A stretch of 64,000 bases of DNA. Origin: Gluconobacter roseus NBRC 3990 (GTDB lineage: Bacteria > Pseudomonadota > Alphaproteobacteria > Acetobacterales > Acetobacteraceae). The translations under genes were made by a program, and so were the position numbers. The notes under the pieces were generated by a model, which saw nothing but the letters and a program-made list of their open reading frames with translations, had not been told where the DNA came from and ran no database searches. Of this stretch, positions 7,254-57,803 are shown one piece after another. The stretch lies in the NCBI RefSeq assembly GCF_006538885.1, contig NZ_BJLY01000003.1:62001-126000 (forward strand), in the 5' to 3' direction. How positions within the stretch are numbered: the stretch's first letter is position 1; every line of letters starts with the position of its first letter.

Positions 7254-7269
7254 TGTTTCACGTGAAACA
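7254..7269. other. parS: parS centromere-like site 1
   Basis: TGTTTCACGTGAAACA is a perfect 16-base palindrome and a full match to the canonical ParB-binding parS consensus. It lies between the DUF721 gene and the glycine-rich gene, outside coding sequence. parA and parB are encoded about 28 kb away in the same window. Confidence 0.92.
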
Positions 7270-35152: not shown

Positions 35153-35730
35153 CCACCGTTTCACGTGAAACACATGAGAGGCTGGAGCACTTTGCCGACC
35201 TGCTCGTGCAGTGGAACGCAAAGATCAATCTCGTCAGCCCGCGTGACATCGGCCAGCTTTGGCCCCGCCATATCGAGGACAGCCTCCAGCTCGCGGAACT
35301 GATCCCCGAAGGCGCGACCATCACCGATCTGGGTTCGGGGGGCGGTTTCCCGGGCATTATTCTGGCCATCGCCACCGGAAATCCTGTCACCCTGATCGAA
35401 TCGGACCAGCGCAAATGTGCCTTCCTGCGGGAAGCCGGACGCATCTGCGAGGCAAAGGTCACGGTCATCGCCAAGCGTATCGAAGCCGCCAGCCCTCCTC
35501 CGGCCGACATCATCACGGCCCGGGCGCTGGCTCCTCTCAACAGGCTCCTCGAATGGGCGCGGCCATTGCTGAAAGAAGACGGGTTCTGCCTGTTCCTGAA
35601 AGGTCAGAAGGCGCAGGCCGAGTTGACCGAGGCAAGCGCCGACTGGCACATGAGCCACAGTATTATTCCCAGCCGCACCGACCCCGGCGGAGCCATCATC
35701 AAGGTCAGTGATTTCAAGCGTGTCGTCTAA
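35149..35730 (+). CDS. rsmG: 16S rRNA (guanine-527-N7)-methyltransferase
   Basis: SAM-dependent methylation of G527. 193 residues. The family signature is [21 protein letters not shown] near residue 26, then the SAM motif [17 protein letters not shown] near residue 60 and the [13 protein letters not shown] adenine-site acidic residue. It sits in the classic mnmG-rsmG-parA-parB order. The first codons coincide with a near-perfect parS site. Confidence 0.95.
35157..35172. other. parS: parS site 3, near-perfect, at the start of rsmG
   Basis: CGTTTCACGTGAAACA differs from sites 1 and 2 only in its first base. It covers codons 3-8 of rsmG, about 540 bases before parA. Confidence 0.8.
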
Positions 35731-36523
35731 AACCGAATCTCCCACCACCCGGATCATTGCCGTCACCAACCAAAAGGGAGGCGTCGGCAAGACCACCACC
35801 ACCATCAATCTGGCAGCCGGTCTGGCCCGTCAGGGACAGCGCGTCCTGCTCGTGGATCTGGACCCGCAGGGCAATGCCTCCACCGGTCTGGGCATCGACT
35901 ACGACCAGCGCAACACCGGCACCTATGCCGCGCTGATGGTGGAAGCCGAACCCCATGCCCTGCCCCAGCCAACCGAATTCGACAATCTGGCGATCATCAC
36001 CGCCAATAACGAACTGGCGGGTGCAGAGCTGGAAATGATCGGCGATGAGCGCCGCGAATACCGTCTGCGCGACGCCCTGCGCGCGCTCGAAGGCGATTAC
36101 GACACCATCCTGATCGACTGCCCCCCGAGCCTGGGCCTGCTGACGCTGAACGCGCTGGTCGCCTCTGACAGTGTGATCGTGCCGCTGCAATGCGAGTTCT
36201 TTGCGCTCGAAGGCATCAGCCAGCTCGTTCGCACCATCGATCGCGTGCGCCGCGCCTTCAATGCCGATCTGCATCTCGAAGGCATCGTCCTGACGATGTA
36301 TGACCGGCGCAACAACCTGTCCGAGCTCGTGGCGCAGGACGCGCGGGGCTTCTTTGGCGATCAGGTGTTCGAGACGCTCATTCCGCGCAACATCCGCATT
36401 TCCGAAGCCCAGAGCCACGGTAGCCCCGTACTCGACTATGACGCCCGCTCCACGGGTGCCATCGCGTATCTGGCGCTGGCGGACGAACTGATCAAACGCA
36501 ACAAGAACAAGGCAAAGGCGTAA
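35708..36523 (+). CDS. parA: Chromosome partitioning ATPase ParA
   Basis: Deviant Walker-type ATPase that moves ParB-parS complexes. 271 residues. The deviant Walker A motif NQKGGVGKTTTTINLAAGLA is near residue 22, with the signature lysine; Walker A' is LLVDLDPQGNASTGLG; Walker B DTILIDCPPSLGLLTLNAL. Lacks a long N-terminal DNA-binding domain, as expected for chromosomal type Ib-like ParA. The GTG start at 35708 overlaps the end of rsmG; an alternative GTG lies 12 bases later. parB follows after 6 bases. Confidence 0.96.
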   Translation: MISSVSSKTESPTTRIIAVTNQKGGVGKTTTTINLAAGLARQGQRVLLVDLDPQGNASTGLGIDYDQRNTGTYAALMVEAEPHALPQPTEFDNLAIITANNELAGAELEMIGDERREYRLRDALRALEGDYDTILIDCPPSLGLLTLNALVASDSVIVPLQCEFFALEGISQLVRTIDRVRRAFNADLHLEGIVLTMYDRRNNLSELVAQDARGFFGDQVFETLIPRNIRISEAQSHGSPVLDYDARSTGAIAYLALADELIKRNKNKAKA

Positions 36524-36529
36524 CCTGCG

Positions 36530-37405
36530 ATGGCCAAAAAGGACAGTTCCCCGCGGCTTGGTCGCGGCCTCGCGGCTCTTCTGGGCGATCAGGCCCCGCA
36601 GCTCGCCCGTGCCACACGCGTGAATGCACAGCCGCAGCAGCTTTCATCCCTGCCGGTGGATGTTCTGGCTCCGAGCCCCTTCCAGCCGCGACAGGACATG
36701 AACCCCGAGCTCCTGTCCGAACTGGCCGATTCCATCCGCTCACGCGGCGTCCTGCAACCCCTGCTCGTCCGTCCTGATCCGGAAAAGCCGGGCCACTACC
36801 AGATCATCGCCGGCGAACGCCGCTGGCGCGCCTCACAGCTCGCAGGCCTGCACAGCATCCCCGTCCATATCCGCGAACTGGACGACACGGACGCCATGGC
36901 GGCCGCTCTGGTGGAGAACCTCCAGCGTGCGGACCTCAACCCGATCGAGGAAGCCGAAGGCCTGCAACGTCTCGTCACGGACTACACCCTGACGCAGGAA
37001 GAACTGGCCGGTGCCGTGGGCAAGTCCCGCCCCCACATCACCAATACCATGCGCCTGCTTAACCTGCCGCCGGAAGTCCGCGCGCATGTCCGCAACGGCG
37101 AACTCACAGCCGGTCACGCCCGCGCCCTGCTGACCCATCCCGATCCGGTCGCCGCAGCAAAAATCGTCATCGCCCGTGGCCTCAACGTGCGCCAGACCGA
37201 AGCTCTGACCGGCGGTAAAAATACCCTGACACCGGCCAAAAAGGCACGGGACGCGGAAATCCTGCAGATCGAAAATGACCTCTCTTCCCGCCTCGGCTTA
37301 AAAGTCCATATTTCCTATAATGGGAAAAAAGGCGGCTCCCTGAAAATCGACTACACGTCCCTAGAGCAGTTCGAGAGCGTCATGCGCCTGCTCAACCGGA
37401 CATAA
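36530..37405 (+). CDS. parB: Chromosome partitioning protein ParB
   Basis: CTP-dependent clamp that loads at parS and spreads. 291 residues. N-terminal RLGRGLAALLGDQ (the ParA-interacting region), then the ParB/Srx domain (VDVLAPSPFQPRQDMN, then IIAGERRWRASQLAGL with the GERRxRA CTP-binding motif), a helix-turn-helix (LTQEELAGAVGKSRPHITNTMRLLNLP) and a dimerisation C-terminus (LKIDYTSLEQFESVMRLLN). Three candidate parS sites are in the window, two of them within 4 kb upstream. Confidence 0.96.
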   Translation: MAKKDSSPRLGRGLAALLGDQAPQLARATRVNAQPQQLSSLPVDVLAPSPFQPRQDMNPELLSELADSIRSRGVLQPLLVRPDPEKPGHYQIIAGERRWRASQLAGLHSIPVHIRELDDTDAMAAALVENLQRADLNPIEEAEGLQRLVTDYTLTQEELAGAVGKSRPHITNTMRLLNLPPEVRAHVRNGELTAGHARALLTHPDPVAAAKIVIARGLNVRQTEALTGGKNTLTPAKKARDAEILQIENDLSSRLGLKVHISYNGKKGGSLKIDYTSLEQFESVMRLLNRT

Positions 37406-43246: not shown

Positions 43247-44148
43247 GCATGACGATGTCCAGCAGCACAGGCCCCATTCTCGTCACGGGCGGCAACGGCC
43301 AGCTCGCGACGTCCCTTCAGAACCTCGGCAACGAGCGGATCATCCGTGTCGGACGTCCGGAGTTCGATTTCGACCGCCCAGAAACCATTACCGCCACGGT
43401 CGAGAAATATAAGCCTTCCGTAGTTGTGAACGCGGCCGCCTGGACAGCCGTCGATCTGGCCGAGACGGAAAAGGACGGCGCCGAACGCGCCAACAATTCC
43501 GGCCCGGCAGCACTGGCCGCAGCCTGCGCCAAGGCAGACATCCCGTTCATCCATGTCTCGACGGATTACGTTTTCTCCGGTGACAAGGGCACGCCCTATA
43601 CTGAAGAGGACGCCACCTCTCCCGAGACGGTCTATGGCAGCACCAAGGCCGAAGGCGAGCAGGCCGTCCTGACTGCCAACATCAAGAGCATCATCCTGCG
43701 CACATCTTGGGTCTATTCGGCCCACGGCAAGAACTTCGTGCGCACGATGATCAATGCGGGTGCCAAGAACCCCGTGCTCAAGGTCGTCGGCGACCAGAAA
43801 GGCAACCCGACCAGCTCGGACGATCTGGCCGAAGCCATTCTCGCCATCATCGCCCTGATCGAGCGCGATGGGTGGAAGCCGGAATACCGTGGCATTTTCC
43901 ATGCCAGCGGAACCGGCGAGACCACATGGCACGGCCTTGCGGTCGCTGCACTGGAAGACGCCGCAAAGCATGGCCGGACCATGCCACAGGTCAACGCCAT
44001 CCGCACCGAAGACTGGCCAACGCCTGCCAAACGTCCGCAGGACTCCCGGATGGATAATTCAAAGCTCCATCGTATTTTTGGCGTAAAGATGCCAGACTGG
44101 CGCCACAGCGTGACACGCATCGTTCACAAGCTGTTTTCCGAAGCCTGA
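43243..44148 (+). CDS. rmlD: dTDP-4-dehydrorhamnose reductase
   Basis: Last step of dTDP-L-rhamnose synthesis. 301 residues from the GTG at 43243 that overlaps the rmlC stop; ATGs at 43249 and 43255 are alternatives. NADPH motif LVTGGNGQLATSLQNLG, VVNAAAWTAVDLAE, HVSTDYVFSG, and the catalytic YGSTKAEGEQAV. The four-gene order is rmlB-A-C-D. Confidence 0.95.
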   Translation: MSMTMSSSTGPILVTGGNGQLATSLQNLGNERIIRVGRPEFDFDRPETITATVEKYKPSVVVNAAAWTAVDLAETEKDGAERANNSGPAALAAACAKADIPFIHVSTDYVFSGDKGTPYTEEDATSPETVYGSTKAEGEQAVLTANIKSIILRTSWVYSAHGKNFVRTMINAGAKNPVLKVVGDQKGNPTSSDDLAEAILAIIALIERDGWKPEYRGIFHASGTGETTWHGLAVAALEDAAKHGRTMPQVNAIRTEDWPTPAKRPQDSRMDNSKLHRIFGVKMPDWRHSVTRIVHKLFSEA

Positions 44149-44260
44149 TCAGTCGGCTGCCCTTTCCTGGCGAGAGGGCGGCCACCTGTCATCATCTTTA
44201 CCGTTGCGTCCGAATGATTCCCTTTTCCCCTCTTTCGGCCTTAAGACCAGGTGCCGAAAC

Positions 44261-45214
44261 ATGACACAGAAAAGGGCCGACTCTCCCCGCCAGATCGCCA
44301 TTCTTCTGTCGCTCTATAATGGCGAGGCTTATCTGGATGGCCAGCTGGCCAGCATTCTGGCCCAGACTCATCCGGACTGGATCCTCTATTGGCGTGATGA
44401 TGCTTCAAGTGATTCCTCACCTGAAAAAATGCGCGTCTTTGCCGCTGGCCCCGGACAGGGACGCTGCGTCGAGATCACCACCCGTCACGAACGGCTGGGC
44501 GTAGCCGGCTCTTATGCCCATTTGCTCGACGCCATCCCCGACACACCCTATGTCGCCTTCGCCGATCAGGATGACATCTGGGAACCACAGAAACTGGAAT
44601 GGGCCATAGACGCCGTCAGCCGGCGCCCGGCTGAAAGGCCGACCCTGTATTGCGCCAGACAATATCTGACGAACGCGGATCTCACAGTCTGTCAGGAATC
44701 CGCTCCCCTGCGCCGCAGACCCGATTTCCCGGCCTCCCTGACGCAGAACATCGCAACGGGTCACACCGTTCTTCTGAACGCCGCAACACACAGACTGATG
44801 CGGAACAACCCGCCGCCGCCCTCAGTCCTGCATGACTGGTGGGCCTATCTCCTGACAGCCGCGATCGAAGGGGACATCATTTTCGACAATCGTTGCGTCA
44901 GTTACTACCGCCAGCACGCCCATAACACGGTCGGCGCAACCGGTTCCTTTATCAGACGTGCCTGGGCCGCCTGCCGCCGCGGCCCCAAAGTTTTCATGAC
45001 GATTTTCCGCGCCAACGTAACACGTCTTCTGGAGCAACCAGAAAACCTGTCTCCACCGTCCTTGTGTCTCCTGCAGGATCTTGCTGCGGCGCAGAATTTT
45101 CCTGCCCGCCTGCGTATCCTCATCCGATACCCGTCTCTCAGACGCCAGCGCTTTTCCGAGACCATAGTCTTCCAACTCTGGTATCTGTTTGCAGACCAGC
45201 ACCCGTTGGAATGA
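44261..45214 (+). CDS. Glycosyltransferase family 2, rhamnosyltransferase-like
   Basis: 317 residues. GT-A start IAILLSLYNGEAYLDGQLASILAQTHPDWILYWRDDASSD, then FADQDDIWEPQKLEWA, where DQDD is the metal-binding motif. The later part (GHTVLLNAATHRLM, LHDWWAYLLTAAI) resembles alpha-1,3-rhamnosyltransferases that use dTDP-rhamnose, in keeping with the rml genes just upstream. I chose ATG 44261. Its 3' end abuts a truncated insertion sequence, so the last residues could be altered. Acceptor unknown. Confidence 0.82.
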   Translation: MTQKRADSPRQIAILLSLYNGEAYLDGQLASILAQTHPDWILYWRDDASSDSSPEKMRVFAAGPGQGRCVEITTRHERLGVAGSYAHLLDAIPDTPYVAFADQDDIWEPQKLEWAIDAVSRRPAERPTLYCARQYLTNADLTVCQESAPLRRRPDFPASLTQNIATGHTVLLNAATHRLMRNNPPPPSVLHDWWAYLLTAAIEGDIIFDNRCVSYYRQHAHNTVGATGSFIRRAWAACRRGPKVFMTIFRANVTRLLEQPENLSPPSLCLLQDLAAAQNFPARLRILIRYPSLRRQRFSETIVFQLWYLFADQHPLE

Positions 45215-45750
45215 AACTGCCAACCGGATGACAATGAATGCTGATGGGGACGAGCATACCCCGTATCTCAAGGCGCACCGCACGGCTTCGAGCCTGCGGC
45301 TCAAAAAGGGGATCCAGGCCGCCTGATCGGTCGCACCAAAGGCGGTATGAATACCAAGCTCCATGCGATCACCGATCAGAACGGACGACCGCTGAGCTTT
45401 TTCATGACAGCGGGGCAGATCAGCGATTATACCGGTGCCGCTGCTTTGCTGGACAGTCTTCCTGCAGCACAATGGATGCTGGGAGATCGCGGGTATGACG
45501 CCGACTGGTTCAGGGACGCCCTGGAAGAGAAAGGGATAAAGCCCTGCATTCCAGGACGGAAATCCCGCGGAAAACCGGTCAAATACAATAAGAGAAAATA
45601 TAAACGCCGCAACCGCATCGAAATCATGTTCGGAAGACTCAAGGACTGGCGGCGGGTCGCAACCCGCTACGACAGATGCCCGACCGTCTTCTTCTCAGCC
45701 ATCTGCCTCGCCGCAACCGTCATCTTCTGGCTATGAATCCTGAGCCTAAG
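45215..45750 (+). mobile_element. Truncated IS5-family (IS427-like) insertion sequence
   Basis: The right part of an IS5/IS427-type element: end of orfA (HTPYLKAHRTASSLRLKK), a C-AAA-AAG slippery site at 45302-45308, all of orfB, and a probable right end after the orfB stop. The left end, N-terminal orfA and left inverted repeat are missing because the glycosyltransferase stop comes at 45214. So this is a remnant unable to transpose on its own. Confidence 0.8.
45347..45736 (+). pseudogene. IS5-family transposase, orfB part of a truncated element
   Basis: About 129 residues from the internal ATG (MNTKLHAITDQNGRPLSFFMTAGQ), with LGDRGYDADWFRDAL carrying the second catalytic aspartate, and NRIEIMFGRLKDWRRVATRYDR carrying the glutamate and the Y-R-K-like motif of IS5 transposases. 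In intact elements orfB is fused to orfA by a -1 frameshift at AAAAAG. The upstream orfA is only its last third, so the first catalytic aspartate is absent and the protein is probably inactive. Confidence 0.8.
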
Positions 45751-47353
45751 ACTGTGGCACTATATTCATGAACCGTTCTGCTGTCTGACAAATAACCAGA
45801 TCAGGCTTTTCTTTTTCTACAAGGGAAAAATCAACATCGGGCGACCAAACGCCATAGAAATTCTCAAAATAGTTCGAGAACCACCATCCGAGACATCCTT
45901 GGTCTAAACAATTCCCAAAAAACGAGTTTCCAAAAGCCAATACCTTTTTCTTAATTGGTGCTGATGGATTATTCCAGATCGAGTACTGACCTGTATGCTT
46001 CCCCGGAGCACCGTGGAAGGTTTCTACGTTGACCCTACTAGACATGAAGTCATCATTTTCAGTATCATAAAATTTATCGAAAATAAAATCCCCTAAAATT
46101 CGATCAGTTAAATCACCTTTGCAAATTATTTCCTTGTTGAATTCTCTATCTTTGGTAATAAAATTAAACACTGAGAATATTATATGAGAGAACACCTCGT
46201 AACTTCCAGTCGGCTGAAGGTGCGTATCTAGTTTTTTATATAATTTTTCTTTATTTTCTTGTGTCTTTTTAGAAAAAAGGTCAATTACAGATATGTAGAA
46301 ATTTTCCCCTCTAAGCTTTTTTTCAAGATTAGACAAATTATTCGTTGGTGTTTCAATTTCAAATGGAAGAAGCTCAGGATAAACTGACATCTTTTCCGGA
46401 ATTATTATCTGAACAAATTTTGCATTTAATGAAGATATTTTTTTATTTCTTGTTTTAATCAGGGAATACCAAGAGTTAGATGTCAGCGTTTCCTCGTTTT
46501 CCTTGCCATACTGCCTGATCAGATCGTTCGATCCCCCAGTCAAAAATGCCTGACCGTTTCTCCCCATCAACGCATCTCTGTACGTCGCCATAAACCCAAC
46601 CGGGATTTCAACAGAAGTTGTCTCCATTACTTTGGAATGTTCATTCCTTTCAATGTGATTTCTTAAGGATGAAGATAAGATTCCAACACCAACATCCGGA
46701 ACAATATCAAAAGAGGATGATTTTTCATCTTTTAAAATATATACTGATTTTTTTATTGATTCTCCAAGATTTTGTTTTAATGTTGCTAAATAGTTTCTAT
46801 TTCTATTTTTATATTTTCCCATTTCTATATCATGAATATTCAAACCCAATTTATTAAAATCCTTTATTATTTTCAAATCTTTTATAATATTTAAGAATCC
46901 CAAATCTGATTCTATAATAAATTTTTCATCAAGATGAGTTGTTTTTATAATTTCTTTGCAAACCAACTTAACATTTTCATCAGCCGTATCTTCATCGAAA
47001 TATACTTCGATTAATTCTTCCCACCCTGAATAGTGCAAACCGGATGTATCGACTGTGTCACTAGACGGAATGCATCTCAAATAAGTCCCTGTTTCCAGAA
47101 ACTGTATTCCAATATTTTCCCTGAGATAGACCTCGTTTATGGAAACAACTTTCTGAAAACAGTTTGAAAAACTTTCAATTCCGATATCAGGATTGAAATT
47201 ATCCAAGGAAAATAGAATTCCTAATGCAGGAAATTTTTCAAATTTGAGAAGTATTATTTTATGTAATGGATTTTCCGGATTTTTACTTTTTGATAGATTC
47301 CCATTTTGATTAGTAATGAATTCATTTTCAACTGATTTTATATAATATGCCAT
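45746..47353 (-). CDS. AlgX/AlgJ-like SGNH-hydrolase-type protein, AT-rich and probably acquired
   Basis: 535 residues from ATG at 47353 (GGGGGAAG upstream). The C-terminal 320 residues follow the alginate O-acetyltransferase AlgX/AlgJ pattern: NGQAFLTGGSNDLIRQY, IIPEKMSVYPELLPF, LYKKLDTHLQPTGSYEVF (the D-x-H element), FGNSFFGNCLDQG (catalytic Ser motif, GNS instead of GDS), and PDLVICQTAERFMNI. No signal peptide is visible. The N-terminal 180 residues are different and share a TGTYLR motif with the protein at 8872-9516. Base composition is far richer in AT than any neighbour, and IS remnants flank it. Probable role: O-acetylation of a surface glycan. Substrate unknown. Confidence 0.7.
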   Translation of the reverse strand: MAYYIKSVENEFITNQNGNLSKSKNPENPLHKIILLKFEKFPALGILFSLDNFNPDIGIESFSNCFQKVVSINEVYLRENIGIQFLETGTYLRCIPSSDTVDTSGLHYSGWEELIEVYFDEDTADENVKLVCKEIIKTTHLDEKFIIESDLGFLNIIKDLKIIKDFNKLGLNIHDIEMGKYKNRNRNYLATLKQNLGESIKKSVYILKDEKSSSFDIVPDVGVGILSSSLRNHIERNEHSKVMETTSVEIPVGFMATYRDALMGRNGQAFLTGGSNDLIRQYGKENEETLTSNSWYSLIKTRNKKISSLNAKFVQIIIPEKMSVYPELLPFEIETPTNNLSNLEKKLRGENFYISVIDLFSKKTQENKEKLYKKLDTHLQPTGSYEVFSHIIFSVFNFITKDREFNKEIICKGDLTDRILGDFIFDKFYDTENDDFMSSRVNVETFHGAPGKHTGQYSIWNNPSAPIKKKVLAFGNSFFGNCLDQGCLGWWFSNYFENFYGVWSPDVDFSLVEKEKPDLVICQTAERFMNIVPQS

Positions 47354-47606
47354 AATAACTTCCCCCGGAAGTGGAACACATTTTTTTATTAAGTAGATCA
47401 GATCTATGTATAAATCTACTCTATGGGCCATACTAGGATCGATAATCGTTGCCTGAACCTTGGGACAGAAATTTCATCATGTATAGCTACATGCGCATAA
47501 ACGCGGTTTGTAACATTAATGATACCTCGTCTGAAGAACTCAAGCTGGTGATACACCGGCCATGCGCTACGACAGAGGCCTAACAAATCATCGGTCTTAC
47601 AGCCCC
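47354..47606. other. AT-rich flank of the AlgX-like gene
   Basis: No gene seen. At 47565-47576 it contains CGCTACGACAGA, identical to 12 bases of the IS5 orfB at 45665-45676 and in the same orientation, perhaps a second IS scrap. Composition returns to normal near 47600. Confidence 0.35.
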
Positions 47607-48047
47607 CTATGCTCGAAACAGAAACCGCCGCATGGCTTCTATGAACGGCCCGTCCTGCTCCAGACTGAATGGTCGCGCAGCATCATAATCATAGACCGTT
47701 GCCGCCGGGCGTGTGGCCTTCTCCGGATCTTCGGAGGCATAGCGCGGGACAATGTGCGTGTGCAGGGATGGCGCCAGATTGCACCATGTCTCGTAATTGA
47801 TCCGCACGGCATCGGTGACGGCCAGCAGCGCATCCCCGACTGCCGCCATATCCGCCAGATACTGCGCGCGGGCCTCACCCTGAAGATCATTGATTGTCGG
47901 CACGACCGGATCTGCCAGAAGCTGGCAGTATCCCGGCAGAGGCTGCGTCTGACCGATCACCAGCCAGCCCGATTTCATACGCCCGATAACAGAAGGGTTG
48001 CTGCCACATCGTGCGGCAGCAACCCTCTGAGCGATAACATCCGTCAT
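47607..48047 (-). CDS. HIT family protein
   Basis: 146 residues. The histidine triad is in LHTHIVPRYAS near residue 100 (H-x-H-x-x, without the full HxHxHxx), with the N-terminal RMKSGWLVIGQTQPLPGYCQLLADPVV and the helix AQYLADMAAVGDALLAVTDAVRINYETW typical of the Fhit/HIT-like branch. The third histidine of the triad is replaced by valine (HTHIV), so activity is uncertain. ATG at 48045-48047 with AGGGGA upstream. It follows the MFS porter on the same strand after 34 bases. Confidence 0.78.
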   Translation of the reverse strand: MTDVIAQRVAAARCGSNPSVIGRMKSGWLVIGQTQPLPGYCQLLADPVVPTINDLQGEARAQYLADMAAVGDALLAVTDAVRINYETWCNLAPSLHTHIVPRYASEDPEKATRPAATVYDYDAARPFSLEQDGPFIEAMRRFLFRA

Positions 48048-48081
48048 GGTCAGTCCCCTTCTGCGTGAAGGGGAAAGCGTA

Positions 48082-49566
48082 TCATGCAGCGGCTTCGGCG
48101 TCCTCGTCATCACTCTGCACGATCCGGGTATTTCCCGGCGTGGGACGGAAACGCTTCTCGATCAGCGCTTCCTCAATATCCTCCAGCGATGCACCAGCCG
48201 TTTCCGGCACGAAGAAGAACACGAAAATCACGGACGCCAGGTTCACGAACGCATAGAACCACATCGTCCAGCTCAGCCCGATGGCTTCGGCCATGCTCAG
48301 CGCCGTGCTGGTCACCAGCAGATCGGCCCCCCACAGCGTCGCGGCATGCAGCGACGTTGCCTGCCCGCGCATGGAGAGCGGGAACATCTCAGCCCCCAGC
48401 AGCCAGCCACAGACCTGAATACCGCCGGAATTGAACATCATGAACAGCAGCAGGAACGCAACAATCATGTAAGCGCCCACACTTCCCGGTGCCGGATGGC
48501 TCATGAACATCACGCCCAGCCCGACCAGCGACAGAGCCGCACCCGGCCCCATGATGAGCATCAGGCGCCGACGGCCAATCCGGTCCACGAACATGCAGCC
48601 CAGGAACGTCATAATGCAGTAGATCACGGCCACACCCAGCGACGCCAGAAGCGCCGACGACGTGCCAAAACCTGCATCATTCAGGAAGGTCGGGGTGTAG
48701 TAGATCATCATTTCCAGACCGCCGCACTGCGTGAAGAACGCAACGCCAAGAGCAGCCACAAGCGCCGGGCGGACCCAGGGCTGGAACAGACCGCGCCAGC
48801 CACGGTTCTTCGGCTCGATCCCTTCCGCATTCTCGCGGATGGTCTGGACCTCGCGGCGAATGGCCCGCTTGGTCGTCCGGATCCGGCCAAGCTGGATGAT
48901 GGCACTTTTCATGCCTTCATTTTCAGCGGCCCAGCGTGGGCTCTTGGGCATGAAGAACATGGAGACGAACACAATGGCTGCCGGAATGGCGGCAATACCC
49001 ACCATCGGGCGCCAGCCCCAGTTCACGCGCTCCGTAAAGCCAATGATGTTGGCGATCAGGATGCCCAGACCGATGGCCACGTTGAACATTGTGACCAGCG
49101 TGCCACGACGCTCCTGCGGCGCCAGCTCGGAAATATACATTGGCACGACCTGCGTCGAACCACCTACGGCCAGACCCAGCACGAAACGCGCACCGATCAG
49201 GCTCCAGACATCCGGTGACAATGAACAGGCCGTAGCACCGACCACGAACAGACCACTCACCATGCAGGTGGTGTTCCGGCGTCCGAATTTCTCCGACAGG
49301 CTGCCAGCCGCGAAGGCGCCGAAAATTGCACCCAGCAGAATGGCGGATGCAACCCATTCCTTCATGGTGGCATTGAGACCGAAATTATCGCCGATCAGCG
49401 GCAGCGTTCCGGAGATGATGCCCGTATCATAGCCATACAGGCCACCGCAGATCGCAGCGACAACTGCCGCCAGGATCAGCATCAGCTTTGCATTAGGGGA
49501 AACTTCGATGGACGCGGGATCAATCTGCTCCCGTCCGCTTTGGACTGTTTTCGTATCGTTTTCCAT
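48082..49566 (-). CDS. MFS sugar porter
   Basis: 494 residues with twelve predicted membrane segments. Sugar-porter motifs: GGLYGYDTGIISGTLP in helix 1, GSLSEKFGRRNT after helix 2, PKSPRWAAENEG after helix 6 (the usual PESPRW), and FFVPETAGASLEDIEE after helix 12. A hexose or pentose symporter such as GalP or XylE is the closest type. The ATG at 49566 is the likely start; a GTG 18 bases earlier is possible. Substrate is not determinable from sequence. Confidence 0.9.
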   Translation of the reverse strand: MENDTKTVQSGREQIDPASIEVSPNAKLMLILAAVVAAICGGLYGYDTGIISGTLPLIGDNFGLNATMKEWVASAILLGAIFGAFAAGSLSEKFGRRNTTCMVSGLFVVGATACSLSPDVWSLIGARFVLGLAVGGSTQVVPMYISELAPQERRGTLVTMFNVAIGLGILIANIIGFTERVNWGWRPMVGIAAIPAAIVFVSMFFMPKSPRWAAENEGMKSAIIQLGRIRTTKRAIRREVQTIRENAEGIEPKNRGWRGLFQPWVRPALVAALGVAFFTQCGGLEMMIYYTPTFLNDAGFGTSSALLASLGVAVIYCIMTFLGCMFVDRIGRRRLMLIMGPGAALSLVGLGVMFMSHPAPGSVGAYMIVAFLLLFMMFNSGGIQVCGWLLGAEMFPLSMRGQATSLHAATLWGADLLVTSTALSMAEAIGLSWTMWFYAFVNLASVIFVFFFVPETAGASLEDIEEALIEKRFRPTPGNTRIVQSDDEDAEAAA

Positions 49567-49684
49567 AGAAACATAACATATCACAAAACGAATGGTTTTT
49601 CAGGCCCGGCAGAAAACCCCCATAAATCCGCGCGAAATACGTTCAGGATTGACTATCCAGCCATAAGCCCGTCAGGATACGACC

Positions 49685-49813
49685 ATGCAGACACCCGATA
49701 CCACCAGAGACGTCCCGGTCATTGGCACAAAAGCGCTGATTATCATGCATGTAATGCTCGTCGCATTCATCCTGCTGATCCATTTCAAGCTGTCGGGCCT
49801 TACCGACTTCTGA
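49685..49813 (+). CDS. Possible 42-residue single-span membrane protein
   Basis: MQTPDTTRDVPVIGTKAL, then a hydrophobic segment IIMHVMLVAFILLIHF, then KLSGLTDF. AGGA lies about 9 bases before the ATG. The last 14 bases overlap the end of convergent znuB. Such size and layout fit a small membrane protein, but nothing independently proves translation. Confidence 0.4.
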   Translation: MQTPDTTRDVPVIGTKALIIMHVMLVAFILLIHFKLSGLTDF

Positions 49814-50606
49814 CCCGTCGCCACAGATCAGCCAGGGCATAGGACAGGGCAGCCCCAAGCCCGATCCAGAACGGGACAGGCGCGTCCGTCACCCAGGACA
49901 GCATCAGCCCGCCCCATGACAGTGCGAGCGCAAGCCCGACGGAGAGCGCGATCCCGGCCAGCGGCCCAAGCCCGAGTTTCAGTGCCGTCGCAGCCGGCCC
50001 GATCATCAGGCTGAACGCCAGAAGCGCGCCAGCCACTTCCGCACACGCCGCACAGGCCAGCGCCGCCACAGCCATAAACACGACCGAAACCAGACGTGCC
50101 GGCACACCCCGCGCCCGCGCCACTTCCGGCGCCAAACTGGCAAACAGCAGTCGGCGTCCCAGAAACGCCAGCAGCCCCAGACACAGCACCGCGACGCCAC
50201 ACAGCGCCTTAAGCGTCGGCATATCGATGCCCAGAACGTCGCCAAACAGCAGCGTAGTCGCCAGACTGGAGCCCCGGTTGCTCATATGCAGGAACCAGGC
50301 GCCAAGCCCCAGACTGGCCGCGAGCACAAGCCCGATCGTGCTGTCCCGCTGGGCCGGAATGCCGCGCTCCCCTTCCCGCTCGGCCCCTATGACAAATCCG
50401 GCCATCAGGCTGAACACCACCATTCCTGACAGCGGCGGAAAACCAAGCCACACCGCCCCGGCCGCACCGCTGAACCCGATATGCGACAGCGCATGGGCCG
50501 CAAACGCCTGACGCCGCAGCATCAGGAACCAGCCGACCGTCCCCGCCAGAACCGATACGACTGCCGCGCCCATGAAGGCATGGCGCATGAAATCAAACTC
50601 GAACAT
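49800..50606 (-). CDS. znuB: Zinc/manganese-type ABC transporter permease
   Basis: 268 residues with about eight membrane helices. ABC-3 family features: AFAAHALSHIGFSGAAGAVWLG near residue 33, GDVLGIDMPTLKAL near the middle, and AEVAGALLAFSLMIGPAATA. ATG at 50604-50606 lies within the end of znuC. Together with znuC and znuA it forms a complete metal importer. Confidence 0.88.
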   Translation of the reverse strand: MFEFDFMRHAFMGAAVVSVLAGTVGWFLMLRRQAFAAHALSHIGFSGAAGAVWLGFPPLSGMVVFSLMAGFVIGAEREGERGIPAQRDSTIGLVLAASLGLGAWFLHMSNRGSSLATTLLFGDVLGIDMPTLKALCGVAVLCLGLLAFLGRRLLFASLAPEVARARGVPARLVSVVFMAVAALACAACAEVAGALLAFSLMIGPAATALKLGLGPLAGIALSVGLALALSWGGLMLSWVTDAPVPFWIGLGAALSYALADLWRRVRSR

Positions 50607-54985: not shown

Positions 54986-55028
54986 ACATGTTTCAAGCGG
55001 CCCCTTTGGGACGGAGCCGGATGAGGGC

Positions 55029-55057
55029 GGTATATCGTCATGATTTCGCCCTGACAA
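55029..55057 (-). promoter_or_regulatory. Promoter of tRNA-Ala
   Basis: On the minus strand TTGTCA (55052-55057) and TATACC (55029-55034) with a 17-base spacer, 44 bases before the tRNA 5' end. Confidence 0.55.
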
Positions 55058-55075
55058 GCCTGAAAAACAGATTTT

Positions 55076-55687
55076 TTAGGCCGCAAGGACCTTCAGTTCC
55101 CGCAGTTCCTCCAGGAGTGGCAACAGCGGCAGTCCCATCACGGCATCCTGCGCCCCCTCGACAACTGAAAAAAGCTGTATCCCAAGCCCTTCAAGCCGAT
55201 ACGCTCCCACACAGGACAGGATCGCCGCCCCTTCCCGCTCCAGATAGGCCTTCAGAAAGTCGTCGGAGAAATCCCGCATCGTCAGACGCGGCGACGCCAG
55301 ATGCTCCCAGATTTTCTCGCCCCCCTTATAGAGAACGACAGCCGTGCGCAGGATATGCGTCCGCCCCCGCAGCCGGCGCAGATGCTCCGCTGCCTCGGCT
55401 ACAGAGTCCGGCTTGGCAAACGCCATCCCGTCCAGATCGAGGATCTGGTCCGCTGCAACCGTCAGTTCATCAAAGCCTACATCCCGCGTCGCAAGGTTCG
55501 CTTTTGCATCCGCCAGAGCGATGGCCGTTTGGGACAGCGTGTGCCCCTGCTCTTCGCAGGATCGCCGCAACGCTTCCTCGTCGAGATCAACGGGGCGGGC
55601 CTGCACCGTAAGCCCCGCATTTTCGAGAAGCATCCGCCGGGCCGAAGAGCCGCTGGCAAGAATGAGGGAAGTACTGAAAGACATCAT
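55076..55687 (-). CDS. maf: Maf/YhdE-type nucleotide pyrophosphatase
   Basis: 203 residues. Start LILASGSSARRMLLENAGL near residue 8, the Maf signature, followed by ADAKANLA, VAADQILDLDG (the E/D catalytic region) and the GAYRLEGLGIQLFSVVEG motif. Hydrolyses noncanonical nucleoside triphosphates. In alphaproteobacteria maf lies near the origin and hemE, as here. ATG at 55687 or 55684. Confidence 0.9.
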   Translation of the reverse strand: MMSFSTSLILASGSSARRMLLENAGLTVQARPVDLDEEALRRSCEEQGHTLSQTAIALADAKANLATRDVGFDELTVAADQILDLDGMAFAKPDSVAEAAEHLRRLRGRTHILRTAVVLYKGGEKIWEHLASPRLTMRDFSDDFLKAYLEREGAAILSCVGAYRLEGLGIQLFSVVEGAQDAVMGLPLLPLLEELRELKVLAA

Positions 55688-56040
55688 GAAGTACGACTCC
55701 GTACTATCGACTGTTGGAACAGGGACGAGTACTGCGGATCACCCGGTGAAGAGATTGCGTCAGTACTGGGGTACATGGGGATAGTACCTGCCCTTGCGAA
55801 AGGAGTACCGAGTACCGTGGATTGTACGGTACACCAGCCGGAACTGGGGGTTGTACACAGGCTCTCTGTGGGCAATTCGGGATTGAATCAACGACTCCCT
55901 TGCAGACTGCGGCTTCCGGAGTTGTACACAGTGTGAGTAAGACGGGGTACATTTTCAGAAAGCCGGGTACCCCGGTATCCACAGGGATCATCTTAACCTC
56001 CAGCATTTCTTTCTTTTTTCTTTTATGATTAGTGGGCGGC
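55688..56040. other. oriC: Candidate chromosomal replication origin (oriC) between maf and hemE
   Basis: No gene in this 353-base region. It has 14 GTAC within 55691-55970, DnaA-box-like nonamers TTGTACACA (55851-55859, 55922-55930), GTATCCACA (55975-55983) and TTGCCCACA on the minus strand (55867-55875), three GANTC sites, and an AT-rich, T-rich tract at about 55985-56035 that could be the unwinding element. It adjoins hemE, as Caulobacter oriC does. The hemE promoter must also be here. Confidence 0.6.
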
Positions 56041-57102
56041 ATGATTTCGGAAAACGCACCTTCCTCACCCTCGTCGAAACCGCTTCTGCGGGCCCTCCGT
56101 GGTGAAGCCGTCTGGCCCCCTCCGGTGTGGCTCATGCGTCAGGCAGGCCGCTATCTCCCGGAATTCCGCGCCATGCGTGATAAGGCCGACTTCCTGACCC
56201 GGTGCATGACCCCGGACATGGCCACCGAGCTGACGATCCAGCCGATCCGCCGCTACGGCATGGACGGAGCCATCCTGTTTTCCGACATCCTGATCCTGCC
56301 CTGGGCCATGGGTCAGTCCCTTGAATTTATTGACGGACGCGGTCCCGTGCTCGGCGCCATCCGCTCCGAAGCCGACCTCGCCAGACTGGACCCGAAACGC
56401 GTACAGGATGCCGTCGCACCGGTGCGTGAGACCTTGTCCCGCCTCACAAAAGAGCTTCCGGACGTCACGACACTTCTGGGCTTCGCTGGCAGTCCGTTTA
56501 CGGTGTCCTGCTACATGGTCGAGGGCGGCGGATCGCGGGATTTCGCCGAAACCCGCCGCATGATGCAGACCAATCCGGCCCTGTTCGATCGCCTGATCGA
56601 CACCCTGACTTCGAGTACTGCCGAGATGCTCTGCGGCCAGATCGAAGCCGGTGCGGAAGCCGTGATGCTGTTCGATTCCTGGGCCGGAATCCTGCCGCCC
56701 TCCGCTTTCCGCCGCTACGTGATCGAGCCGACGCGCCAGATCGTCGATTACATCCGCGCCCGTCACCCCAAGACCCCGATCATCGGTTTCCCGCGCCTTG
56801 GCGGCATCATGGTCCGCGAATATGCGCAGAAAACCGGCATCAACACGCTCGCCCTCGACACCGTCGCCGACCCGGCCCAGATCTCCGAACTGGTTTCCAA
56901 GGTCACGCCAGGCCTGACGCTTCAGGGCAATATGGATCCGATGATCCTGTTCTCCGGCGGTGAGAAAATGATCCGCGAAGCCCAAGCCATTCGTGACGCG
57001 ATGCGCGGAAAACCGCATGTTTTCAACCTTGGCCACGGTGTCATGCAGCACACGCCCCCCGAGAATGTGGCGGCCCTCGTTGAAGCGGTACGCTCGGTAT
57101 GA
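56041..57102 (+). CDS. hemE: Uroporphyrinogen decarboxylase
   Basis: Converts uroporphyrinogen III to coproporphyrinogen III. 353 residues. Diagnostic N-terminal PPVWLMRQAGRYLPEFRAMR near residue 22, FSDILILPWAMGQSLEF, GFAGSPFTVSCYMVEGGGS, and FDSWAGILPPSAFRRYV; the C-terminus ends NLGHGVMQHTPPENV. ATG at 56041; a GTG 9 bases earlier is possible. Overlaps the next gene by ATGA. Confidence 0.96.
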   Translation: MISENAPSSPSSKPLLRALRGEAVWPPPVWLMRQAGRYLPEFRAMRDKADFLTRCMTPDMATELTIQPIRRYGMDGAILFSDILILPWAMGQSLEFIDGRGPVLGAIRSEADLARLDPKRVQDAVAPVRETLSRLTKELPDVTTLLGFAGSPFTVSCYMVEGGGSRDFAETRRMMQTNPALFDRLIDTLTSSTAEMLCGQIEAGAEAVMLFDSWAGILPPSAFRRYVIEPTRQIVDYIRARHPKTPIIGFPRLGGIMVREYAQKTGINTLALDTVADPAQISELVSKVTPGLTLQGNMDPMILFSGGEKMIREAQAIRDAMRGKPHVFNLGHGVMQHTPPENVAALVEAVRSV

Positions 57103-57803
57103 CAACCGCCCTAGACCCGGCCGGCCAGCTGAAACTGGTCATTTTCGACTGCGACGGCGTTCTCGTGGACAGCGAAGGCCCGTCCTGCCAGGCCACGGCG
57201 GAATTTGCCCGCTCCAAGGGGCTGTCCATTTCGGACGATGAGGCGCATAAGCGTTTCGCAGGCATGGCCCTGCCGCAGGTTGTGACGGAACTCGAGCATG
57301 AACTCGGGCATTCCCTGCCGGAAGAAACGGCATTCAAACTGCGCGAAAATCTCGTACAGATAATGCAAAAAAGCGCAGAACCTGTAAGCGGAGCGCTCGA
57401 AATGCTGGCAGGCGTGCGGGCTTTGGGAATGCCGGTTCGTGTTGGCTCGAATTCTTCCGTCCGCGAGATGGAAGCCAAGTTCGAGCGTACCGGAATGTCG
57501 CAGTATTTCCCCGAAAACCGCGTCCATTCCGCCAATGACATGGGCTGCCCCAAACCCGCTCCGGACGTCTATCTGTACGCCGCAAAGGCCGAGGGCGTCC
57601 TGCCAGAAAATTGTGTCGTCATCGAAGACAGTAATACTGGAGCAGAGGCTGCCTGGAAGGCCGGCATGGCCTGTGTGCTTCTTCGCCCCGAGGATGCGCC
57701 CCTGCCCCCGTTCTGGCCCGTCGAAGGCTCCGTCCGCATCACGCATCTGGACGAGCTGGTACCCCTGCTGCGCCGGACGCTGGAAAGCCAGAAACACGCA
57801 TGA
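57099..57803 (+). CDS. HAD-superfamily phosphatase, beta-phosphoglucomutase/phosphoglycolate type
   Basis: 234 residues. HAD motif I VIFDCDGVLVDSEG near residue 14, a helical cap, motif II VRVGSNSSVREMEAKF, motif III GCPKPAPDVYLYA, and motif IV CVVIEDSNTGAEAA. This is a subfamily IA protein that could act on phosphoglycolate, sugar phosphates or a hydrolysed nucleotide; substrate cannot be fixed. It sits between hemE and hemJ with ATGA overlaps on both sides. Confidence 0.85.
   Translation: MTTALDPAGQLKLVIFDCDGVLVDSEGPSCQATAEFARSKGLSISDDEAHKRFAGMALPQVVTELEHELGHSLPEETAFKLRENLVQIMQKSAEPVSGALEMLAGVRALGMPVRVGSNSSVREMEAKFERTGMSQYFPENRVHSANDMGCPKPAPDVYLYAAKAEGVLPENCVVIEDSNTGAEAAWKAGMACVLLRPEDAPLPPFWPVEGSVRITHLDELVPLLRRTLESQKHA

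Follow-up and report, generated by a model that had tools for sequence, protein, structure and literature searches.

A dense GTAC array in the very probable hemE-linked replication origin of acetic acid bacteria

The spacer between a maf-like gene and hemE in the window (the whole stretch of DNA analysed, 64 kb in length) is very probably an oriC of the hemE-linked alphaproteobacterial kind. It is held with high confidence that this spacer is the chromosomal replication origin and that a dense array of GTAC sites forms part of it, a grading that leaves any methylation of the sites aside. The array is the most striking feature of the spacer and was overlooked in the preliminary description of this DNA, which had proposed an origin on the basis of other features. 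The window's own genome is designated G000 (the window being G000:C3:62001-126000), and other G numbers denote the genomes of relatives. The closest named matches to the HemE protein of the window come from Gluconobacter. The features are as follows.

55076..55687, minus strand: maf-like gene, open reading frame flanking the proposed origin
55688..56031, no strand: maf-hemE spacer, 344 bases, proposed oriC
56032..57102, plus strand: hemE, GTG start (ATG at 56041), flanking the proposed origin
55671..55970, no strand: GTAC array of 15 sites, the first inside maf, at 55671, 55691, 55701, 55729, 55763, 55771, 55784, 55805, 55812, 55824, 55829, 55853, 55924, 55947 and 55967
55851..55859, plus strand: DnaA box TTGTACACA with GTAC inside, this GTAC column kept in 38/38 loci
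55922..55930, plus strand: DnaA box TTGTACACA with GTAC inside, this GTAC column kept in 37/38 loci
55975..55983, plus strand: DnaA-box-like GTATCCACA, adjoining the T-rich tract and directly after a palindrome around GGGTACCCC
55867..55875, minus strand: weak DnaA-box-like TTGCCCACA, two mismatches
55932..55940, minus strand: weak DnaA-box-like TTACTCACA, one mismatch
55695..55897, no strand: three GANTC (CcrM-type) sites, at 55695, 55885 and 55893
55993..56032, no strand: T-rich, least stable tract, candidate DNA unwinding element
35708..37405, plus strand: parA-parB, origin-region partition genes

The 344-base spacer contains 14 GTAC sites against 0.42 expected, the 15th (55671) being located inside the start of maf; the densest 300 bases elsewhere on the contig, in seven 20-kb stretches, contain 5. 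GTAC triples within short reach occur at 20 forward-strand places in G000, 11 in the array and 9 outside. One of the outside places, C3:504254, falls within a long ORF which presumably encodes a protein resembling a TonB receptor. All four DnaA-box-like nonamers of the preliminary description (TTGTACACA twice, GTATCCACA and TTGCCCACA on the minus strand) were recovered, and the weak TTACTCACA was found in addition. Matches to TTATNCACA with one mismatch number 4 in the spacer versus 0.11 expected from the window's own rate, a count from which TTGCCCACA, with its two mismatches, is excluded. Comparison of the loci places TTATCCACA at the position of GTATCCACA in many basal relatives. The three GANTC sites described earlier exceed the 0.53 expected (rate from 98 in 64 kb), and over 38 array-bearing loci the density of GANTC amounts to 2.34 per 400 bases upstream of hemE versus 0.52 within the gene and downstream of it. 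The T-rich tract beside hemE also proved real, the 40-mer at 55993 being the least stable in 52-60 kb and among the least stable 1% of the window. Adjacency to hemE, a DnaA-box cluster above chance and an easily opened AT-rich tract, three of the marks of a hemE-linked oriC, were found in G000.

The par block noted previously corresponds to mnmG-rsmG-parA-parB at 33.3-37.4 kb of the window. Three parS sites had also been claimed and are present, perfect at 7254 and 32871 and with one mismatch at 35157, when scored against what we take to be the parS consensus. The presence of parAB and parS in the window speaks for the origin. No RNA family matched positions 55000-57200 at gathering score, and the spacer had no match in plasmid and phage collections. 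The G+C content decreases to 47-49% within positions 44001-50000 of this 60% window, perhaps reflecting acquired DNA.

The absence of a CtrA motif, presumably TTAA-N7-TTAA, from the 400 bases upstream of hemE in all 38 array-bearing loci means that the spacer is not classed as a CtrA-controlled Cori. According to an excerpt of PMC1914354, oriC is linked to hemE in Caulobacter crescentus (Cori) and Rickettsia prowazekii. Like the origins portrayed in that excerpt, the spacer is intergenic, lies beside hemE and combines DnaA boxes with an AT-rich tract; unlike them, it has maf instead of COG1806 as its neighbor and carries a dense GTAC array and GTAC-bearing boxes.

A locus was counted as array-bearing when at least six GTAC were present in the 650 bases upstream of hemE. 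Among the best 80 listed hemE loci the array is present in 38 and absent in 42. The array-bearing loci belong to Gluconobacter, Acetobacter, Komagataeibacter, Gluconacetobacter, Novacetimonas, Acidomonas, Commensalibacter, Endobacter and some MAGs, and the array is retained at GC contents from 32% to 71%. In the alignment of the 38 loci, eight columns retain GTAC, in 37, 34, 36, 35, 38, 37, 38 and 38 loci, respectively, and the remaining sites occupy lineage-specific places. Enrichment was determined for 37 of the 38 loci, one locus without the core being omitted. GTAC occurs 509 times in these versus 73.2 times in dinucleotide shuffles (7.0×) and is the only palindromic 4-mer strongly enriched, the runner-up being CATG (1.4×). 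The core pattern, with one mismatch allowed, has a single occurrence in each of 8 genomes. Exact TTRTNCACA boxes are TTGTACACA in 50/56 cases at array loci versus 1/25 at the others, a comparison that is partly circular as the loci were sorted by GTAC. Neither GTAC at an origin nor acetic acid bacterial methylomes with GTAC were found in the top-ranked literature, where absence is unproven; within these matches the GTAC array at oriC is apparently undescribed.

The origin reading is supported by the conserved spacer, by the position of skew minima in relatives and by the ranking of DnaA-box clusters. Cumulative GC skew was calculated for 20 stretches of 20-184 kb, chosen around arrays. The minimum lies no more than 1.6 kb from the array in 11 of the 20 (G182, G184, G181, G171, G169, G172, G062, G012, G006, G011 and G005, the last with a stretch of only 20 kb), at 3.2 kb in G118, and 8-37 kb off in eight (G108, G010, G180, G095, G015, G089, G074 and G000). 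The combined probability is 5e-10, a rough figure that ignores relatedness.

The preliminary description had named a skew minimum elsewhere as an argument against an origin here, and elsewhere is where it was found in G000: the cumulative skew falls steadily through the spacer without a turn inside the window, GC skew stays negative from 56032 through the window end to C3:154518, and the cumulative minimum is reached on the hemE side, 36.7 kb away from the array. The minima of G010 and G015 are displaced likewise, by 13.5 and 23.3 kb. These three displacements to the same side would be expected if the working origin of this clade had shifted 13-37 kb towards hemE and left the array as a relic, which is considered very unlikely: the array is equally well kept in all three genomes (15 GTAC in 300 bases in each), and the stretch scan detected no DnaA-box cluster at the displaced minima comparable to that of the array. 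The proposed search for DnaA boxes favored the spacer, the array being the top cluster in 184 kb of G000; the cluster at the array also ranks first in the stretches of G010, G015, G012 and G171. The gene order of G000 is collinear with that of G012, whose skew minimum sits at the array. A recent inversion as the cause of the offset in G000 was rejected, the right side being collinear with G012, and no other explanation for the offset was found. A search for dif in 15 genomes with what we presume to be its pattern gave two one-mismatch matches and was uninformative.

The position of the spacer between two divergent genes would also suit a mere regulatory region of maf and hemE. This reading is scarcely credible in view of Bombella intestini (G171), Parasaccharibacter apium (G169) and Bombella dulcis (G172), which keep maf and hemE paired without the array. 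Their array is located 21-26 kb away, beyond the ORF preceding mnmG, which is probably mnmE.

L188-L205 (G171:C5, G169:C2, G172:C21): loci of the moved array

The skew minimum lies 0.3 kb (G171), 0.4 kb (G169) and 0.8 kb (G172) from the moved array. Being within 0.8 kb in 3/3 genomes, the skew tracks the element and not the maf-hemE genes. The element is adjacent to hemE in G000 and away from it in the Bombella clade, which, as the origin element has moved there on its own, constitutes a natural experiment. Arrays off the hemE spacer also occur in G168, G170 and partly in G173.

The preliminary description noted correctly that the window contains no dnaA; this absence is expected, since in the relatives dnaA lies away from the origin. 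The distance between dnaA and hemE was determined in 16 chromosomes or main contigs, the length of the main contig being used for the several unclosed ones. In 12 of 13 chromosomes which carry or have lost the array (including G011, G005, G118, G062 and G174), dnaA is separated from hemE by 0.69-1.0 of the half-circle, with G148 (0.14) as the exception. In three basal chromosomes without the array the values are 0.02, 0.69 and 0.37.

An origin near dnaA has been predicted in two genome papers: excerpts of these place the oriC of A. pasteurianus 386B at dnaA (PMC3751514) and that of A. cerevisiae KSO5 at dnaA, at the skew maximum (PMC13209655). Such a location is regarded as highly improbable. 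The minimum lies less than 1 kb from the array in three of four Acetobacter stretches (14.1 kb off in the fourth, G180), the sampled skew of G011 switches sign at the array (negative to positive), at a distance of about 1.05 Mb from dnaA, and the KSO5 origin was, in the excerpt, called at a maximum; the skew evidence derives from genomes other than 386B and KSO5. The location of dnaA towards the opposite pole may explain these placements, and we think, judging from the other genomes, that both are wrong. The spacer offers a testable origin for industrial Gluconobacter, Acetobacter and Komagataeibacter, a group whose oriC has been assigned to dnaA in at least two genome papers.

The palindromic form of the 4-mer hints at a methyltransferase. 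Family PF01555, present in 120/120 family genomes, became informative only once CcrM had been separated from a second class. The second-class gene of G000 is the candidate GTAC enzyme.

G000:C1:666059-666745 (L327:1411-2229): orphan PF01555 methyltransferase, second class, behind mltA

The second-class enzyme of G000 has 272 residues and is 59-85% identical to 12 orthologues. Its gene overlaps the end of mltA, and mltA is found alongside in 10/12 orthologue loci, the other two being G148 and a short stretch of G026. The enzyme is present in all 12 array-bearing genomes classed (11/11 in one survey, plus G026). The three array-lost genomes G114, G078 and G164 have no second-class orthologue (0/3); all 10 of their PF01555 matches were aligned, of which four are CcrM or CcrM-like and the others short stretches only. 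The association of enzyme and array has a Fisher's exact p of 3e-4, uncorrected for relatedness, and the joint losses may represent just two events, G078 and G164 being one genus. The basal genomes G150, G094 and G136 lack the enzyme. None was found in G029, which has 3 GTAC; G029 and G032 gave one PF01555 match each and are 90% and 86% complete. True orthologues, 61-65% identical, occur in the basal genomes G035, G027 and G031, which nevertheless have 1-2 GTAC; an order in which the enzyme arose first and the array later fits best. A Dam-type PF02086 protein was rejected as the GTAC enzyme, being patchy (12/30 genomes) and not found in G000.

By analogy with oriCs in general, DnaA would bind the two TTGTACACA boxes and the (G/T)TATCCACA box and open the T-rich tract beside hemE. 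The lineage-specific GTAC array would overlie this layout, with two GTAC built into the DnaA boxes. The orphan mltA-linked methyltransferase would methylate GTAC, and a passing fork would leave a hemimethylated array that delays re-initiation or changes DnaA loading, similar to Dam/GATC at the E. coli oriC. It is tentatively proposed, at a little under an even chance, that acetic acid bacteria control initiation via putative GTAC methylation by an orphan RsaI-like methyltransferase, an independent counterpart of Dam/GATC/SeqA. The part of this proposal by which a few lineages lost array and enzyme jointly, one such lineage carrying 14 perfect DnaA boxes at its hemE spacer instead, is put forward just as guardedly. 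The tie of the enzyme to GTAC is an association, not proof, and its specificity is putative.

The role of Dam and SeqA at the E. coli oriC is treated in an excerpt of PMC6471742. The arrangement described here resembles the GATC/Dam/SeqA system in combining a dense palindromic 4-mer at oriC with a candidate orphan methyltransferase; it differs in that the 4-mer is GTAC and not GATC, the enzyme belongs to PF01555 and not PF02086, and both methylation and a protein binding hemimethylated sites are putative. The CcrM/GANTC system is represented as well: G000 encodes CcrM, and the spacer is enriched in GANTC; the second methyltransferase is, however, separate and about 26% identical to CcrM. The 4-mer is shared with RsaI/PabI/HpyAXII-type restriction-modification, the recognition site of RsaI being GTAC in the portion of PMC4357717 at hand. 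A difference from that type is that M.Hpy99XII is listed as a gamma-class enzyme in an excerpt of PMC3936762. Cyanophage homologues of the enzyme lie beside an R.RsaI-like gene, whereas no nuclease was seen beside the enzyme in G000, where the locus consists of mltA, the enzyme and an unrelated ORF. Among phages, an unannotated uncultured phage gave the best match to the enzyme, ahead of cyanophages. No relative of R.RsaI was found beside the homologue in cyanophage ACG-2014f or on a Paracoccus alcaliphilus plasmid (homologue 50% identical), and none is annotated on a P. pantotrophus plasmid. In cyanophage ACG-2014j the gene that overlaps the homologue (43% identical) was annotated R.RsaI by the depositors, and cyanophage Syn2 carries a gene related to it at the corresponding position (40% over 131 residues); the type II restriction enzyme scores are 0.0014 for the ACG-2014j gene and 1.6e-11 for the Syn2 gene. 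If GTAC is methylated, there would be a second, independent example of an origin with a methylated 4-mer array, and the function of such arrays could be studied beyond the Dam/SeqA lineage.

The spacer could also be an oriC in which GTAC forms the core of sites bound by an as yet undescribed origin-binding protein, or of weak DnaA sites, with no role for methylation. This reading is a serious possibility, though on balance we incline against it. Eight GTAC sites keep both their positions and their flanks, a constraint not required of a signal based on density alone, and the methyltransferase occurs without the array in G035, G027 and G031. Against a binding-site core, the flanks vary from site to site with GTAC alone in common, and GTAC is also enriched at the less conserved places upstream of the core (113 versus 18.6 expected, 37 loci). 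DnaA domain IV is nearly identical between array-bearing and basal no-array genomes, so that the specificity of DnaA was probably unchanged when the array arose. Array and enzyme are, moreover, jointly missing in G114 and in G078/G164.

The array is absent from G078 and G164 as well as from G114, which has no GTAC triple by the tighter pattern. The hemE spacer of G114 contains 14 perfect TTATCCACA upstream of hemE and no GTAC (L177:1000-1300), and the skew minimum is located about 3 kb from the hemE start (20 kb examined). With its array replaced by 14 perfect DnaA boxes, G114 constitutes another natural experiment. DnaA domain IV is altered in G114, G078 and G164 (L272, L277 and L278).
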